This document shows positions 12,431 through 27,542 of a DNA stretch of 64,000 nucleotides, piece after piece. Every line of letters starts with the position of its first letter. The first letter of the stretch is position 1. The DNA is from Methanoplanus sp. FWC-SCC4 (GTDB taxonomy: Archaea > Halobacteriota > Methanomicrobia > Methanomicrobiales > Methanomicrobiaceae). The stretch spans positions 496,001 through 560,000 of the forward strand of contig NZ_CP043875.1 in NCBI RefSeq assembly GCF_032878975.1, written 5' to 3'. Both the position numbers and the translations under genes were made by a program. The notes beneath the pieces are model-generated. The model was not told where the DNA came from, ran no database searches, and saw only the letters and a list, made by a program, of their open reading frames with translations.

Positions 12431-12539
12431 TGTAAGTCCACAAAAAGAGTCATAACTGACTATTTTGTAATCCCAGAGCCCGATTATTCCGGGCAGTGCC
12501 TTTCATTGTATCAGGACACGTCGGACTTACTTTTTTTTT
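12431..12539 (+). ncRNA. Candidate structured small RNA, closed by an 8-bp stem
   Basis: GTAAGTCC (12432-12439) pairs exactly with GGACTTAC (12523-12530), and a run of nine T follows at once (12531-12539). Inside are three local hairpins. P2 is CAAAA/TTTTG (12441-12445 with 12463-12467) enclosing AGTCA/TGACT (12448-12452 with 12457-12461). P3 is GCCCG/CGGGC (12478-12482 with 12490-12494). P4 is GTGCCT with AGG-CAC (12496-12501 with 12513-12519, one bulged A). Together they form a four-way junction. There is no ORF, and a TATA-like box lies at the right distance. It does not look like 5S, SRP, RNase P or tRNA, and I do not recognise the class. Confidence 0.55.
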
Positions 12540-12726
12540 AGTCAGCACATTATTTCAGTGCTATATGTAATGGGATATATTATGAGATAAAAGGATCGTC
12601 TTATCCGAAGGTTGTCCCTGATGGATTTAATGTTTTTCTTCTTTTTAATCTCCCTGATATTGTTTTGTTTTACATTAAAAAATAAGTTTTATCATCAGAG
12701 AACTCCAAATTAAAGATTGTATATCT

Positions 12727-21533: not shown

Positions 21534-21678
21534 TTTATTCAATGAATTTTTAGAAAACTAAAAAAACAAATTTTTTAGAAACCCGTGTGTATATAGTGTC
21601 ATATTTATAAGTCTGAATACGCCGGTTTTATTATTTTTAAAGTACAATATGATATGGAGTTATTACTCATTTGTTGTG

Positions 21679-21749
21679 CCGTTGTGGCTTAGAGGTATAG
21701 CGGCTGATTCGTAATCAGCAGGCCGGGGGTTCAAATCCCTCCAGCGGCT
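21679..21749 (+). tRNA. tRNA-Thr (anticodon CGU)
   Basis: Cloverleaf with acceptor GCCGTTG/CAGCGGC, anticodon loop TTCGTAA (anticodon CGT), T-arm GGGGG-TTCAAAT-CCCTC and discriminator T, as usual for archaeal tRNA-Thr. It lies immediately upstream of an integrase remnant and is probably the attachment site of a former integrated element. Confidence 0.96.
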
Positions 21750-21811: not shown

Positions 21812-22352
21812 CATGGGAAATATAACCGCACCCTCCCGTACTGAAAGTAGTTTTCATTACGTCAAAACTGTCTATGCAGACAGGTCATTTGAAAAAGGAT
21901 TGAGAGAAGATCGAATAACTCATGATGATATTGATTTAATCTATGTATTCTATCCGAGCTTCAGGCATCACAGAATATTGGTCTTCTAAGAACAAACAAA
22001 ATCATCTATACTCTTGTAAACTGGAGAAGTTTCATATGTCCTTTCAGAGATGCAAAGATCGCTGACATCTACAAAGCAATTTCAGAATTAAAATCAGCAA
22101 ACACTCAAAAGGGAAGACCATACAAAGTCAATACATTCTATGTAATGTTCCTAAAGAGATTCTATGTCTGGATGATTGAAAACGAATATGTGGATCTTTC
22201 AAAGGAGAAGATCAAACGGATAAAACCCCCAAGAGAAGACCGTAGAACAAAACTTCCTGAACAGCTACTCTCAAAAGAAGAAATAGAATCGCTGCTCAAA
22301 AATTGTTTATCTTCAAGAGACCGGGAGTTAATTGCACTTCTCTATGAATCAG
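21812..22352 (+). pseudogene. Tyrosine recombinase (XerC-like integrase), frameshifted and truncated
   Basis: Starting at the ATG at 21812, the first frame reads MGNITAPSRTESSF and runs to DLIYVF. A shift near 21950 then moves to another frame that reads SELQASQNIGLLRTNKIIYT, through MFLKRFYVWMIENEYV to ELIALLYESGCR at about 22352. That is the core-binding domain plus the first catalytic-domain helix of the archaeal integrase family. The catalytic Arg region and everything after it, including the Tyr, are missing. It lies 62 bases after tRNA-Thr in the same direction, the classic arrangement of a tRNA-integrated element. Confidence 0.75.
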
Positions 22353-22690
22353 GCTGCCGTGTTTTTCTTTCTGTTTGTCTTCTTTCGATTCAACAAGACA
22401 CCATATGCCTGCTTCGAGCATTGCTTTCCCGATCTTTCCGTATGCGGGATACTGCTTTTCAAAGGCTTCGATGTCTTCCTTTGTTACTTTTCTTGAATTT
22501 TTCTGTATGGTCTCACCTAAAGTCGTGATGTTTTTGCAATGGCTTGCAGCGGTTTTTTTGTTTTTCTGTTAACCACCAGTTTTCTGCAAACCCATTTTCC
22601 GACGGCGTTTTGGAAATCCGCGGGGATTTGGTCGTCACTAAAAAGAAATGTTAAATCCCGGTCGTCATTGTTGCCGGCATTTCCCAACGC
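22353..22690 (-). pseudogene. Frameshifted ORF fragment of unknown family
   Basis: On the minus strand, one frame reads LGNAGNNDDRDLTFLF through KWVCRKLVVNRKTKKPLQAIAK. It then meets a stop at 22517-22519. The neighbouring frame continues naturally with NITTLGETIQKNSRKVTKED, then EDIEAFEKQYPAYGKIGKA, to about 22353. The switch point is a run of five A near 22535. Joined, it would be a protein of about 110 residues. It abuts the break in the integrase, so a rearrangement fused the two. I do not recognise the family. Confidence 0.45.
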
Positions 22691-23022: not shown

Positions 23023-23610
23023 TCATTTTTTCTCTGCCTTAATCTCTTCTGAATGCATTACTTCAGATTCTATCCCTTTAATGAAATCAGAAGTTTTTTT
23101 CTCAATATCATCCGAGAATACTTCTCCTACTCTCAACAGAAGGGCAATAGCCCATAATACAATAATTATGAGGATAATTCCTGCGAGTACATTGAATATG
23201 CTTGATAAAAAAGGCAGGAAAAATAAATATGCGATTACAACAACGAGAACATAGGCCAGACCACGAAATCCTCTCTGGTATTTGAGTAGTTTTTCTTCCT
23301 CTATCGTTTCTTTTCTTAATGTTGCAACTGCAGCATAAGATGCAATAGCATCAGTGATTGCTTTGACATCTCTAAGCACGGCAAACAAAATGATCAGCAA
23401 AGCAATCAGAACAATTGCAGCGATAAGCTTTTCAAGTCCAATCAGGCCGAGAAAAGTGGGATCACTTAGGAATCCCGAGAGTGGAAGAAAGATATAAACT
23501 GCAAATAGCCATATCAGAAAAGCTATAACCAATTTTACAAGGACTTTTGGAAACTTTTCTGCAACTGTTTTTCTTGCCTCCATCATTACATCAACAGCGG
23601 TTTCTGTCAT
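23023..23610 (-). CDS. Membrane protein of unknown function
   Basis: 195 residues. About four membrane helices: 24-45 and 58-80, then, after a polar coiled segment (about 80-112), 114-136 and 137-160. The acidic, lysine-rich C-terminus is presumably cytoplasmic. The N-terminal segment MTETAVDVMMEARKTVAEKF is amphipathic. I do not recognise a family. It and the following small membrane gene lie between a decayed element and the coiled-coil operon. Confidence 0.65.
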   Translation of the reverse strand: MTETAVDVMMEARKTVAEKFPKVLVKLVIAFLIWLFAVYIFLPLSGFLSDPTFLGLIGLEKLIAAIVLIALLIILFAVLRDVKAITDAIASYAAVATLRKETIEEEKLLKYQRGFRGLAYVLVVVIAYLFFLPFLSSIFNVLAGIILIIIVLWAIALLLRVGEVFSDDIEKKTSDFIKGIESEVMHSEEIKAEKK

Positions 23611-24209: not shown

Positions 24210-24533
24210 TCAGTCCTCTTTTTCTTCAGGTACCGGATTTTTAAAAGTCATTGTATGAAGTTTAATCACACCATTGCATGAATTGCAGACATAAAAATCC
24301 TGAGTCCAGCAGGATGAGCATGCCCACCGCCCGCAGAGTGTGCACTGTTTGATCTCATTAAGTGGAAATGAATCATTGCACAGATCACAATAATATTTTG
24401 AAAAAGTAGAGGGATCTTTCTCAGGGAAATTTCCCTGTTTACGCATGGTTACAATATCCCCCCGAAGCCTTGAATACAAATTATCCCGCCTTTCTTTTTG
24501 CTCACTTGCCGGGAATCTGTTCTTCAAGAACAT
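24210..24533 (-). CDS. Small zinc-finger protein, last gene of the coiled-coil operon
   Basis: 107 residues. After a basic N-terminal helix region (about 1-45) come four C-x2-C pairs: YYCDLCND, QCTLCGRW, CSSCWT and YVCNSCNG. This treble-clef or FYVE/B-box-like layout can bind two zinc ions. The start at 24533 overlaps the end of the preceding coiled-coil gene by 32 bases, so translation is coupled. It probably mediates protein or nucleic-acid contacts for the operon products (inference). Family not recognised. Confidence 0.72.
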   Translation of the reverse strand: MFLKNRFPASEQKERRDNLYSRLRGDIVTMRKQGNFPEKDPSTFSKYYCDLCNDSFPLNEIKQCTLCGRWACSSCWTQDFYVCNSCNGVIKLHTMTFKNPVPEEKED

Positions 24534-24846
24534 TAAGACGCTCCTCCAGATTTGTCAGTTTTGCGTTCATGCTTTCTTTAAAATCCTTAAGGACGGCTGT
24601 TTTGCTTTCGTCTGCCAGAATCTGACTATTTTTATTATTGCAAAATGATCTGACCTGATATTTATCAGCCAGAGACCACTCGGAAACCATCTCCTCAAAA
24701 TGACGATCAAGGTACTCGTCAACGCGGCCCTCTATTGGCCGGCTGATTGACAATTCACTTGTAGACCCCTTGAAATAATAATACATGATGAATGCAATAA
24801 TTGCAATGAGGATAACAGCTGAAAGGAAAAATTCAAGCCATGTCAT
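24502..24846 (-). CDS. Membrane-anchored coiled-coil protein with EWxL motif
   Basis: 114 residues. An N-terminal membrane helix (about 5-25) is followed by the segment EYLDRHFEEMVSEWSL (about 44-59) and a C-terminal coiled coil (about 83-112) with leucine heptads. The Y-L-D...E-W-x-L segment recurs in the two preceding genes. The start overlaps the stop of the previous gene by 4 bases. Function unknown; it could be the membrane tether of a complex. Confidence 0.68.
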   Translation of the reverse strand: MTWLEFFLSAVILIAIIAFIMYYYFKGSTSELSISRPIEGRVDEYLDRHFEEMVSEWSLADKYQVRSFCNNKNSQILADESKTAVLKDFKESMNAKLTNLEERLNVLEEQIPGK

Positions 24847-25067
24847 TTTCTGACCTCTTTAATCTTTGAAAGCCTCTTTTCAAGAACATTCATTCTCTCA
24901 TAAGCTTCATCTTCAAACAATTTGATATCCCTGATGTCTTTTTCAACCGAATTAAGACGGATTATGAAATCTCCAAAGTCCTGTCCGGTTCCAAGATTCC
25001 ACTCATTAATAATATATTTCATCCGGCTGTCAATGTAGGTATTCATATAATCGTCAAAGCCGCTCAT
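24843..25067 (-). CDS. Small coiled-coil protein with EWxL motif
   Basis: 74 residues, soluble. The segment TYIDSRMKYIINEWNL (about 10-25) matches the motif in the flanking genes, followed by a coiled coil (about 38-70). It overlaps both neighbours by 4 bases. It appears to be a stripped-down paralog of the 25064-25381 product. No family recognised. Confidence 0.66.
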   Translation of the reverse strand: MSGFDDYMNTYIDSRMKYIINEWNLGTGQDFGDFIIRLNSVEKDIRDIKLFEDEAYERMNVLEKRLSKIKEVRK

Positions 25068-25381
25068 AATTCACCTTCTATCTCGCTTATTGCGGATTCG
25101 AGTGCCCTGGCCCTCTCTTCAATAATCGTCTTTTTGCTTTCAAGCATGCTGATTTCGCTGCTGACGCCATCAAGCCTGTGTTCAAGATGATCAAGAGTGC
25201 TTAAAGTCACCAGATCCCACTCAGAGATAAGTTCATTGAAATGCGAATCAAAATACCGGCCCATCTTCTTTTCCATAGAAGGCATAACTGAATTAATTCT
25301 TCCCGGTATCCCTGCAAGTGTCTCCGAGAAAGAATGTTTTTTTTCCTTCCCGGAAATATTTGTTTCATACATTTTAATCAC
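25064..25381 (-). CDS. Coiled-coil protein with EWxL motif
   Basis: 105 residues, soluble. It has RYFDSHFNELISEWDL (about 42-57), then a heptad-rich region to the C-terminus. The start is a GTG at 25381 overlapping the upstream stop by 4 bases; an ATG at 25372 is an alternative. The shared motif with the next two genes suggests tandem duplication within the operon. Function unknown. Confidence 0.66.
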   Translation of the reverse strand: MIKMYETNISGKEKKHSFSETLAGIPGRINSVMPSMEKKMGRYFDSHFNELISEWDLVTLSTLDHLEHRLDGVSSEISMLESKKTIIEERARALESAISEIEGEL

Positions 25382-25779
25382 CGGATTTTCCTTTCATCAT
25401 CTTTTATTTTCTCGATCATACGATCGAGTTTTGTGTTTTTGACCATGTTCTCAAGTTTTTGAATTCTCTTTTCTACAGTGCTTTGTTTGGCAAAGATCGT
25501 GGATTCAAGCTCGTTGTTTTCCTGGTCAATTTTGTTAATCTCTTCGAGACTTTCAGGAGATATCCGGAAAAAGGGCTGACATCTGCTTTTGTATTCAAGA
25601 GTCATCAGTTTAAGTTTCTCTTTTTCCAGATCAATTTCAGCAAGTCTTGGCGTCACTCTTCCTAACTGGATTTCCCTGATAATATAGTAGATAATGATAA
25701 GTCCGATAAAAAGCAGAACAACCCACATCAAAGACTGAAACCACTGCCACCACTCCGGGTATAAAGACTCTATGGCCAT
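25378..25779 (-). CDS. Membrane-anchored coiled-coil protein
   Basis: 133 residues. A tryptophan-rich N-terminus (PEWWQWFQSLMW) leads into one membrane helix (about 17-35), then a long charged coiled coil to the C-terminus. It lacks the EWxL motif of the next three genes, but its topology matches the 24502-24846 protein. It is the second gene of the operon, 15 bases after the barrel protein gene. No family recognised. Confidence 0.67.
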   Translation of the reverse strand: MAIESLYPEWWQWFQSLMWVVLLFIGLIIIYYIIREIQLGRVTPRLAEIDLEKEKLKLMTLEYKSRCQPFFRISPESLEEINKIDQENNELESTIFAKQSTVEKRIQKLENMVKNTKLDRMIEKIKDDERKIR

Positions 25780-25794
25780 TGTATCTAGTCTCCT

Positions 25795-26238
25795 TCAGAG
25801 TTCATCCTCCTTTTTGCCGGGCATTATTTTTTCACCGATTTCTTTCATCCCTTTCTCAATAGTTGCCCCCGCTTTAGATGTCTCTTCTTTAATGGTTTTC
25901 CCTGTATTGCCTGCTTTTATTCCAATCACTTCTGTGAAAGGAATCTTTCGTTTAATTATGACAGTATCTCCTTCAAGAGCACCAAGACGGGCAATGTCTT
26001 CAGGACTCATCCTTATGACATCCGTTTTGACCATACTGTCGGCAAACACAGAAACAACAATTGGTTTTGATTTTTCCTCTTCACCAGTAACAGCTTTCAT
26101 TACTTCGAGATTCTCCCCCACTTTAACCTCTAAATCTGGCAATAATGATTCATGGACGCGTACTCGTCCGCTGCTGGGGAAGGATCTTGTTTCGATTTTT
26201 AACTCAATCCCTTCCATAATAGAGGGTGAAATGGGCAT
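25795..26238 (-). CDS. CDC48-N/double-psi-barrel-like small protein
   Basis: 147 residues from the ATG at 26238, chosen for its distance from a TATA box near 26275; TTG 26268 and ATG 26217 are alternatives. Two half-barrel-like units are visible: GRVRVHESLLPDLEVKVGEN and, later, IRMSPEDIARLGALEGDTV. The 'position then G-x-x-x-G-D' pattern resembles the double-psi beta-barrel of CDC48/VAT N-domains, which bind substrates or adaptors. The C-terminal 35 residues form a charged amphipathic helix. It is the first gene of the six-gene operon. The fold call is by pattern only. Confidence 0.62.
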   Translation of the reverse strand: MPISPSIMEGIELKIETRSFPSSGRVRVHESLLPDLEVKVGENLEVMKAVTGEEEKSKPIVVSVFADSMVKTDVIRMSPEDIARLGALEGDTVIIKRKIPFTEVIGIKAGNTGKTIKEETSKAGATIEKGMKEIGEKIMPGKKEDEL

Positions 26239-26269
26239 TATAGTATTTAGATATTGTGTGAATTCCAAG

Positions 26270-26285
26270 TATAATTTAAAAATAG
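26270..26285 (-). promoter_or_regulatory. TATA box of the coiled-coil operon
   Basis: The minus strand reads TTTTTAAATTATA about 35-45 bases before the ATG at 26238. This would give a short leader and supports that start over the further upstream TTG. Confidence 0.4.
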
Positions 26286-26384
26286 TATAAATATTAAATA
26301 TAAGTGTTGTTATGATGAAAAGAGAAGATAATCATCTTGTTTTCATCAGAAATTCAGATAGATCTTTTTTTATGATAAATCCGT

Positions 26385-27542
26385 TCATTTCAGTATATTT
26401 CTGCGCATTAAAGCCATTACGCCCGGTTTTTTATTTCTTCTGATTCTTGACTGCACAGGGGATATTCCTGCGCCTGGTTCCTCAAACATTTCCTTATTCA
26501 GCCTTTCATTAATTTCATCAAAAATTTTGTTGTAGGCAGCGCAGTGAGGATCGACTGCTTTAATCTCTCCATTTGTTGGTGCAATTGCGTTATACGGGCA
26601 TCCTCCGCGGCAATAATTAATATGTGGACATTCCCCGCACTCTTTGTCAACAAAGGATTTGAATCCTGTCATCAGTTTTCCTGCATCAGAATTCATTAAA
26701 TCATCGATTGAGGGTTTTTCATATACATTTCCCATGACAAACTTTGGCATCCCGACAAAACGGTAGCACGGGTAGATATTTCCGTCAGGTCCCACTGCGA
26801 ATGTGCTTCCCATACAGTCTGCAAAAGTGCAGACACTTCCATTCCTTGTAAAAACACATCTGCACAGGTCGTTGACATTCATTATTTCAAGATCATTTAT
26901 ATGCTCAAGAGATTTGTCAAGAAGATATATGAGCAGTTCACCGTATTTTTCAGGAGATAAAGCCCATTTGTCAGGATTATTGTCACGCAGAGAGGGAAGT
27001 GCCGGGTGAAGTTTTAAGGTAAGACCGTTTTCAAGGAAAAAATTCAGGATTTCATCTTTTGATTCCACTGACTGACCGGTGAATGTGCATATGAATCTTA
27101 CATTCAGGCCGTTTTCCTTTGCAATTTTCCAGCCTTCCATTGTCTTTTCAAAGTAACCTTCTCCTCTTTGCGAATCATTAATCTCTTTTGGCCCGTCTAT
27201 ACTTGAACCAATTGGAATTTTATATTCAGCAAGGATTTTTGCAATTTCAGGTGTTAAAAGCCAGAGGTTTGACTGGAGTGCAAAGTCGGGCGTTAAATGG
27301 GTAAGTTCTTTTGAGAGTATCGGTAGTGCCTCTCTGTAAAATTCAGGACCTGCAAGAAGAGGTTCTCCTCCATGAAATGTGAATGTGACGGGGATGTCCT
27401 TTAAATCTTTAAGCCATTCTGCAATTGCCCTGACGGTATCAATAGTCATTACCGGTGAATTTTCATCTGAACTCCAACAGTAACTGCAGTTGCACGGGCA
27501 GCCGAGAGTAGGTATAATCATGACATGGAAGGGATTTTTCAT
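26385..27542 (-). CDS. Radical SAM/SPASM enzyme, predicted peptide-modifying
   Basis: 385 residues. The radical SAM cluster motif C15-x3-C19-x2-C22 (GCPCNCSYCW) is followed by HGGEPLLAG and SSIDGP. The C-terminal SPASM-type cysteines run from VCTFADCMG and PCYRFVG to CGECPHINYCRGGCPYNA. SPASM proteins use auxiliary [4Fe-4S] clusters, often to modify ribosomal peptides or as sulfatase-maturase-like enzymes. I believe it belongs to a methanogen-restricted family (Mhun_1560-like, TIGR04083). No obvious precursor peptide was found next to it. A hydrophobic-basic C-terminal tail follows the SPASM domain. Confidence 0.85.
   Translation of the reverse strand: MKNPFHVMIIPTLGCPCNCSYCWSSDENSPVMTIDTVRAIAEWLKDLKDIPVTFTFHGGEPLLAGPEFYREALPILSKELTHLTPDFALQSNLWLLTPEIAKILAEYKIPIGSSIDGPKEINDSQRGEGYFEKTMEGWKIAKENGLNVRFICTFTGQSVESKDEILNFFLENGLTLKLHPALPSLRDNNPDKWALSPEKYGELLIYLLDKSLEHINDLEIMNVNDLCRCVFTRNGSVCTFADCMGSTFAVGPDGNIYPCYRFVGMPKFVMGNVYEKPSIDDLMNSDAGKLMTGFKSFVDKECGECPHINYCRGGCPYNAIAPTNGEIKAVDPHCAAYNKIFDEINERLNKEMFEEPGAGISPVQSRIRRNKKPGVMALMRRNILK

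Follow-up and report, generated by a model that had tools for sequence, protein, structure and literature searches.

Do the six small genes that lie head to tail on the minus strand between positions 24210 and 26268 of the window (the whole 64,000-nucleotide stretch of Methanoplanus sp. FWC-SCC4 DNA analysed here) make up a single system, and if so, what might that system do? The host is a member of the order Methanomicrobiales, whose genome of 2.31 Mb consists of a single contig. The first-pass annotation, made from the DNA letters, had described six small minus-strand genes coding for a barrel protein, two single-pass anchors, two soluble coiled-coil proteins and a four-CxxC zinc protein. 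All six are present as open reading frames, and these product descriptions hold:

26239–26384, no strand assigned: upstream intergenic region, A+T-rich and TATA-like as read directly from the sequence; probably holds the promoter of the six genes
25795–26268, minus strand: gene 1, TTG start listed; double-psi beta-barrel (DPBB) with an amphipathic, low-complexity tail that ends in -DEL
25378–25779, minus strand: gene 2, single-pass membrane anchor with a short N-terminus outside and a cytoplasmic coiled coil
25064–25381, minus strand: gene 3, GTG start; soluble coiled-coil protein with a YFD...EWxL domain
24843–25067, minus strand: gene 4, short soluble protein with a coiled coil, paralogous to genes 3 and 5
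24502–24846, minus strand: gene 5, single-pass anchor with a YLDRRF...EWxL domain and a cytoplasmic coiled coil
24210–24533, minus strand: gene 6, four-CxxC binuclear zinc protein, Pfam Prok-RING_2 (PF14445)

Conservation and inheritance of the six-gene cluster

The junctions are as first described: genes 1 and 2 are separated by a gap of 15 nt, the pairs 2/3, 3/4 and 4/5 each overlap by 4 nt, and genes 5 and 6 overlap by 32 nt. Two start codons deserve comment. Gene 3 has an in-frame ATG 9 nt past its GTG, and a start there turns its 4-nt overlap into a 5-nt gap; for gene 1, the conserved start region of the homologues favours an ATG at 26217 or 26238 over the TTG listed at 26268. Five of the six window proteins match no Pfam or NCBIfam family model above cut-off. 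Note that an open frame of 172 aa runs antisense to gene 1 (25772–26290, plus strand) and falls into one cluster with frames from seven further loci; it is most likely a by-product of gene 1 codon use.

The first-pass annotation had staked its idea of a single module on gene order being kept in related genomes, and this order is indeed conserved. A search with gene 1 among 295 genomes of the phylum returned 18 with good matches, two further weak and partial ones being set aside, while a Prok-RING_2 search of the phylum gave 18 strong matches, which fell in the same 18 genomes and near the barrel gene. With profile models built from these matches, all six families were found together, in one order and on one strand, in 18 of 18 barrel-bearing genomes. 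When 84,980 species genomes were scanned independently, with gene 6 as the sole query, 73 loci emerged (many contigs are common to both sets, so that their counts are not additive). Eight of these loci are cut by contig ends, their remaining genes being in canonical order; each of the 65 untruncated loci has all six genes, and order and strand are canonical in 64 of them, including two (L124 and L138) with split genes. The lone rearranged copy, L140, is a divergent module from an Altiarchaeota metagenome-assembled genome (MAG), in which genes 2–6 are followed by a gene 1 that overlaps gene 6; the binning of this copy is uncertain because its contig is short (5.2 kb). Two other matches were rejected as module members: a partial one in genome G126 (E=2e-4), and a lone weak one in a HEAT-like protein of G347, an Altiarchaeota-phylum genome with no other module gene.

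The overlaps are conserved as well. Across some 65–70 loci, the overlap is exactly 4 nt in 71% of cases for genes 3/4 and in 72% for genes 4/5, and genes 5 and 6 overlap in 97%, the commonest lengths being 32 nt, in 31 loci, and 50 nt, in 18. That long overlaps are kept across large sequence divergence suggests translational coupling of the subunits. Altogether, the six-gene arrangement is far beyond chance expectation.

The module is patchily distributed within the Methanomicrobiales, where 19 of 70 sampled genomes hold it. Outside this order, it was found in two Theionarchaea MAGs, whose sample names are similar, and in one of 29 genomes of the Altiarchaeota phylum. The nearest relatives of the window's copy in the module tree come from Methanogenium and related MAGs, and the tree largely tracks host families; together with the patchy occurrence within the order, this suggests inheritance with losses. 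Patchiness and the altered gene order in one distant lineage could also speak for a mobile or antiviral module, but to this reading we give hardly any credence: no PADLOC model matched, two scans of viral collections (IMG/VR among them) and one plasmid search found no relatives, the tree follows the hosts, and the sampled genomes carry one copy each. A viral, plasmid or defence origin was rejected on these grounds, the PHROG matches being weak and of unknown function.

The barrel and tail of gene 1

In the AF2 model of the gene 1 product, residues 4–90 fold into a double-psi beta-barrel with a pLDDT of about 90, and the tail has a pLDDT below 50. Foldseek places the barrel next to the N-domains of p97/CDC48 and to the isolated DPBB of archaeal VCP-like ATPases (E about 1e-7), with a TM-score by target of 0.81–0.85 against the latter, which bears out the initial suggestion of a barrel of CDC48/VAT-N type. 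Against Pfam CDC48_N, the window protein scores 24.0–24.4 bits, below the curated cut-off of 35.1, and ten homologues score 14.5–30.1 bits. The likeness to the CDC48/VAT/p97 N-domain comprises the fold and the order of strands and helices of its first lobe. Gene 1 differs, however, in being a standalone protein devoid of the second lobe (Nc) and of AAA domains: the barrel ends near residue 90 of a product of 140–157 aa and continues into an amphipathic tail and, at times, a TrkA-C domain. Since only the first lobe is there, gene 1 has no counterpart of the interlobe cleft in which p97 binds its cofactors.

These observations bear on the main rival to the interpretation that we develop below, namely a quality-control adaptor for membrane proteins, in which the barrel would present substrates to CDC48/VAT and the proteasome, or mimic the CDC48/VAT N-domain, while the anchors and the zinc module hold the clients, as in a small ERAD-like complex that dispenses with ubiquitin. 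This rival draws on the closest structures of the barrel being p97/CDC48 N-domains, on full CDC48 proteins being encoded by the host and by 69 of 70 members of the order, and on the combination of membrane anchors with a zinc protein named after RING. The one-lobed barrel argues against it, as does a neighbourhood in which genes for the proteasome, AAA proteins or ubiquitin-like proteins are not conserved. So does the number of CDC48 copies: nearly all members of the order have at least two complete CDC48 genes, and holders of the module hardly differ from non-holders in this respect. We consider this rival unlikely, and a dedicated CDC48 partner was rejected because copy number is not linked to the module. 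The substrate-adaptor role proposed at first is thus reduced to one option among several.

The tail of gene 1 is rich in repeats of A, G, K, E and V. Its profile matches Apolipoprotein (E-values down to 2.8e-6), Senescence (1.1e-4) and, weakly, synuclein (E=0.05), and its hydrophobic moment exceeds that of shuffled sequences (z>2) in 23 of 35 homologue tails; in the window, the tail is short and reaches an amphipathicity z of only 1.7. Like the helices of alpha-synuclein and apolipoproteins, the tail is built of repeated units, here A/G-K-x-V-K-E-G-A, with a similar profile; unlike them, it is fused to a barrel. The synuclein- and apolipoprotein-like matches, being matches of sequence, may arise from composition alone or from convergence.

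Short forms of gene 1 mostly end in -EL or -DL. In nine loci on deep branches (L106, L111, L114, L117, L118, L123, L126, L134 and L135), the tail is followed instead by a C-terminal TrkA-C (RCK_C) domain, and the -DL/-EL ending is absent from these forms. TrkA_C scored above its curated cut-off in all six long forms tested (L106, L118, L123, L126, L134 and L135), Methanospirillum being one of the deep lineages concerned, and a Pfam scan gave no TrkA_C match in the window's gene 1. Since TrkA-C occurs in deep-branching copies, a ligand-binding domain may have been present in the ancestral gene 1 product and lost since. One could then imagine that the module regulates ion transport or osmotic balance, the TrkA-C part of gene 1 sensing a nucleotide, for example c-di-AMP, and the scaffold gating a transporter of K+ or solutes encoded elsewhere. 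The above-cut-off domain in Methanospirillum and other deep lineages would fit such a regulator, and so would the location on the cytoplasmic side of the membrane; still, we regard it as improbable, because most members, the window's included, are devoid of TrkA-C and because, if DUF308 proteins of unknown activity are set aside, transporter genes do not recur near the module.

The anchors, the paralogous coiled coils and the zinc protein

Both genes 2 and 5 code for one transmembrane segment near the N-terminus, the C-terminal side of which is positively charged in 99–100% of homologues; for gene 2, the flank C-terminal to the hydrophobic segment is richer in K/R by 4.0 on average (66 homologues). 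This charge distribution indicates that the coiled coils lie in the cytoplasm and agrees with the two membrane tethers described in the first-pass annotation. Genes 3, 4 and 5 share a homologous domain, with the approximate signature Y-[FLI]-D-x-[RH]-x4-[IV]-x-E-W-x-L, and match one another in profile–profile comparisons (hhalign, 97.7–98.1%). In the tree, each of the three forms its own clade, with Theionarchaea and Altiarchaeota members included, implying that the triplication is old and that the three subunits are not interchangeable.

Three paralogous coiled-coil subunits could also be the elements of a coat or skeleton for an internal structure such as a polar cap, an inclusion body or a division site: their trimers would form a sheet beneath the membrane, and the gene 1 tail would cover a lipid or polymer surface in the manner of a phasin. 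This arrangement would suit the resemblance of the tail to apolipoprotein, senescence and, weakly, phasin-type profiles. Nevertheless, we deem it quite unlikely, given that no polymer-synthesis or cell-division gene was seen to recur in the neighbourhood and that Snf7 was not found in 70 genomes of the order (the control matched in Sulfolobus only, below cut-off).

Gene 6 belongs to Pfam Prok-RING_2 (E=1.9e-26; 92.4 bits against a cut-off of 22.4), and all 54 aligned gene 6 sequences that were scanned match this family. Six cysteines are invariant among the 54 sequences and two more are present in at least 90% of them, making eight zinc ligands, in keeping with the four-CxxC module recognized at the outset. 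The AF2 core of gene 6 has a pLDDT of about 96, and its nearest folds are FYVE, then PHD, and not RING, FYVE structures dominating the top ten, although these matches are non-significant (best E=0.16). Weak sequence matches to FYVE and FYVE_2 occur in 23 and 31 of the 54 members, respectively. A weak match to TFIIE (E=0.0017) was taken as chance.

The family name notwithstanding, the predicted fold of gene 6 is therefore nearer FYVE than RING, within the limits of non-significant matches, and its conserved partners here are not ubiquitin genes. A RING-type ligase system for ubiquitin-like proteins could invoke the score of gene 6 above the Prok-RING_2 cut-off; we hold it to be highly improbable and rejected it, as the E2 model UQ_con matched in none of 18 holder genomes (nor in any control genome), no E1, Ubl or JAB match was found among the six genes, and the fold points elsewhere. 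The motif by which FYVE domains bind phosphoinositides is R(R/K)HHCR. It is absent from the gene 6 alignment, where the consensus at that place reads LRQCxLCGRWACxSCW. With the eukaryotic FYVE/coiled-coil tethers EEA1 and Hrs/Vps27, the module would have in common a binuclear zinc fold predicted to be FYVE-like and coiled coils at a membrane, but it has no R(R/K)HHCR motif, its fold match is non-significant, and its parts are separate polypeptides with transmembrane anchors.

A comparison with archaeal ESCRT is also in order, since these loci likewise hold VAT-N-type domains, coiled coils and zinc domains, and the Halo_adaptin ATPases found in them carry a VAT-N-related domain (PMC10936438). 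The six genes differ from such loci in comprising no Vps4-type ATPase, no ESCRT-III and no winged-helix protein, and the Snf7 result given above, with its control below cut-off and in Sulfolobus only, led us to discard an ESCRT partner. As to the membrane-remodelling role that had been guessed initially, it keeps indirect support from the gene 1 tail and the FYVE-like fold, against which stand the lack of an AAA or ESCRT-III gene in the operon and of Snf7 in the 70 genomes.

Seen as a system, the module matches no known kind; seen as domains, most of its parts are already known. The initial statement that no described system has such a composition stands for the libraries and literature searched, which contain no description of the six-gene system; a 2011 survey of prokaryotic RING domains, which lay outside that search, may mention a Prok-RING_2 neighbourhood. 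This survey is reportedly where the Prok-RING_2 naming originated. To the first-pass annotation, the present analysis adds the paralogy of genes 3, 4 and 5, the assignment of gene 6 to a named Pfam family and the synuclein/apolipoprotein-like character of the gene 1 tail.

Neighbourhood and a possible role at the membrane

There is no seventh conserved gene beside the module, and the flanking genes vary. Strict conservation of six genes amid changing surroundings bespeaks a shared function kept by selection. Among the neighbours, genes of the DUF308/HdeD type recur: 16 of 74 loci (e.g. L088, L106, L113 and L133) have one no more than 4.2 kb from the module, and the arrangements, at least seven in number, differ in side and orientation. 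With a background of roughly 1–6 DUF308/HdeD genes per genome (each protein giving two or three matches), about one such locus per 100 would be expected, by a hand estimate that inherits the roughness of this background. Recurrent as they are, these genes are no fixed member of the module and are absent beside most copies; in the window, no DUF308 gene was seen alongside the operon. Genes for LEA_2 and VTT-domain (DedA-type) proteins adjoin a few copies. DUF308/HdeD, LEA_2 and VTT proteins are all of a membrane or stress type, which gives a weak hint of a stress role.

The six products probably act together at the membrane. Several observations support one complex: the six genes occur together in a shared order in 18 of 18 genomes and in 64 of 65 untruncated loci, and are kept as a set even in the divergent L140, where gene 1 has moved; the paralogous trio is older than the lineages that carry it; and the overlaps are conserved. 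Our preferred interpretation, held tentatively and as somewhat short of an even chance when taken whole and with the stress role read broadly, is a membrane-docked scaffold in the cytoplasm that senses or stabilizes the membrane. More specifically, the six products would form one complex docked on the cytoplasmic face, with genes 2 and 5 as tethers (N-terminus out, coiled coil in), the copies of the helical domain in genes 3, 4 and 5 probably building a hetero-oligomeric coiled-coil core, and gene 6 supplying a rigid binuclear zinc module of the FYVE/RING treble-clef type for docking. Gene 1 would be the mobile part: its CDC48-N-type barrel may bind proteins, its synuclein/apolipoprotein-like helix may fold reversibly onto stressed or curved membrane and, in the lineages that have TrkA-C (RCK_C), this ligand-binding domain may gate it. 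The complex could thereby sense the membrane or osmotic state and stabilize the membrane or recruit clients. That its job is membrane stress sensing is, on the evidence for this point taken by itself, a rather doubtful proposition.

The CDC48-type barrel, the putatively lipid-seeking tail, the FYVE-like zinc module and the tethered coiled coils are of kinds that eukaryotes employ for quality control and traffic at their membranes. A bolder possibility, which we judge unlikely, is that they constitute a new membrane-surface machine, combining a tethered hetero-oligomeric scaffold, a standalone CDC48-N barrel, a synuclein-like tail for membrane sensing, optional RCK_C gating and a FYVE-like zinc module, which would sense the state of the membrane and recruit or protect its clients with neither ubiquitin nor a dedicated ATPase; were this true, parts of eukaryotic membrane quality control would have been combined independently in methanogens. 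As the holders include cultivated methanogens, these proposals are directly testable.

Several other features of the window were recorded. Directly upstream of gene 1 lies a gene for a peptide-modifying radical SAM/SPASM enzyme of methanogens (26385–27542, minus strand; TIGR04083, 682 bits), which was dismissed as a seventh member because it is not among the recurrent neighbours. Downstream of the module, 23023–23610 (minus strand) encodes a 195-aa multi-pass membrane protein with a weak 2TM match, which is not a conserved neighbour. A short open reading frame at 22145–22528 (plus strand) opens with a stretch resembling the N-terminus of a tyrosine recombinase, after which the frame is lost, and has no Pfam match; it adjoins a tRNA-Thr (21678–21749) and is possibly the remnant of an integrated element. 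Finally, an S15-Methanomicrobia ribosomal protein leader RNA (RF03137, 51.2 bits) is found at 12467–12562 on the minus strand.
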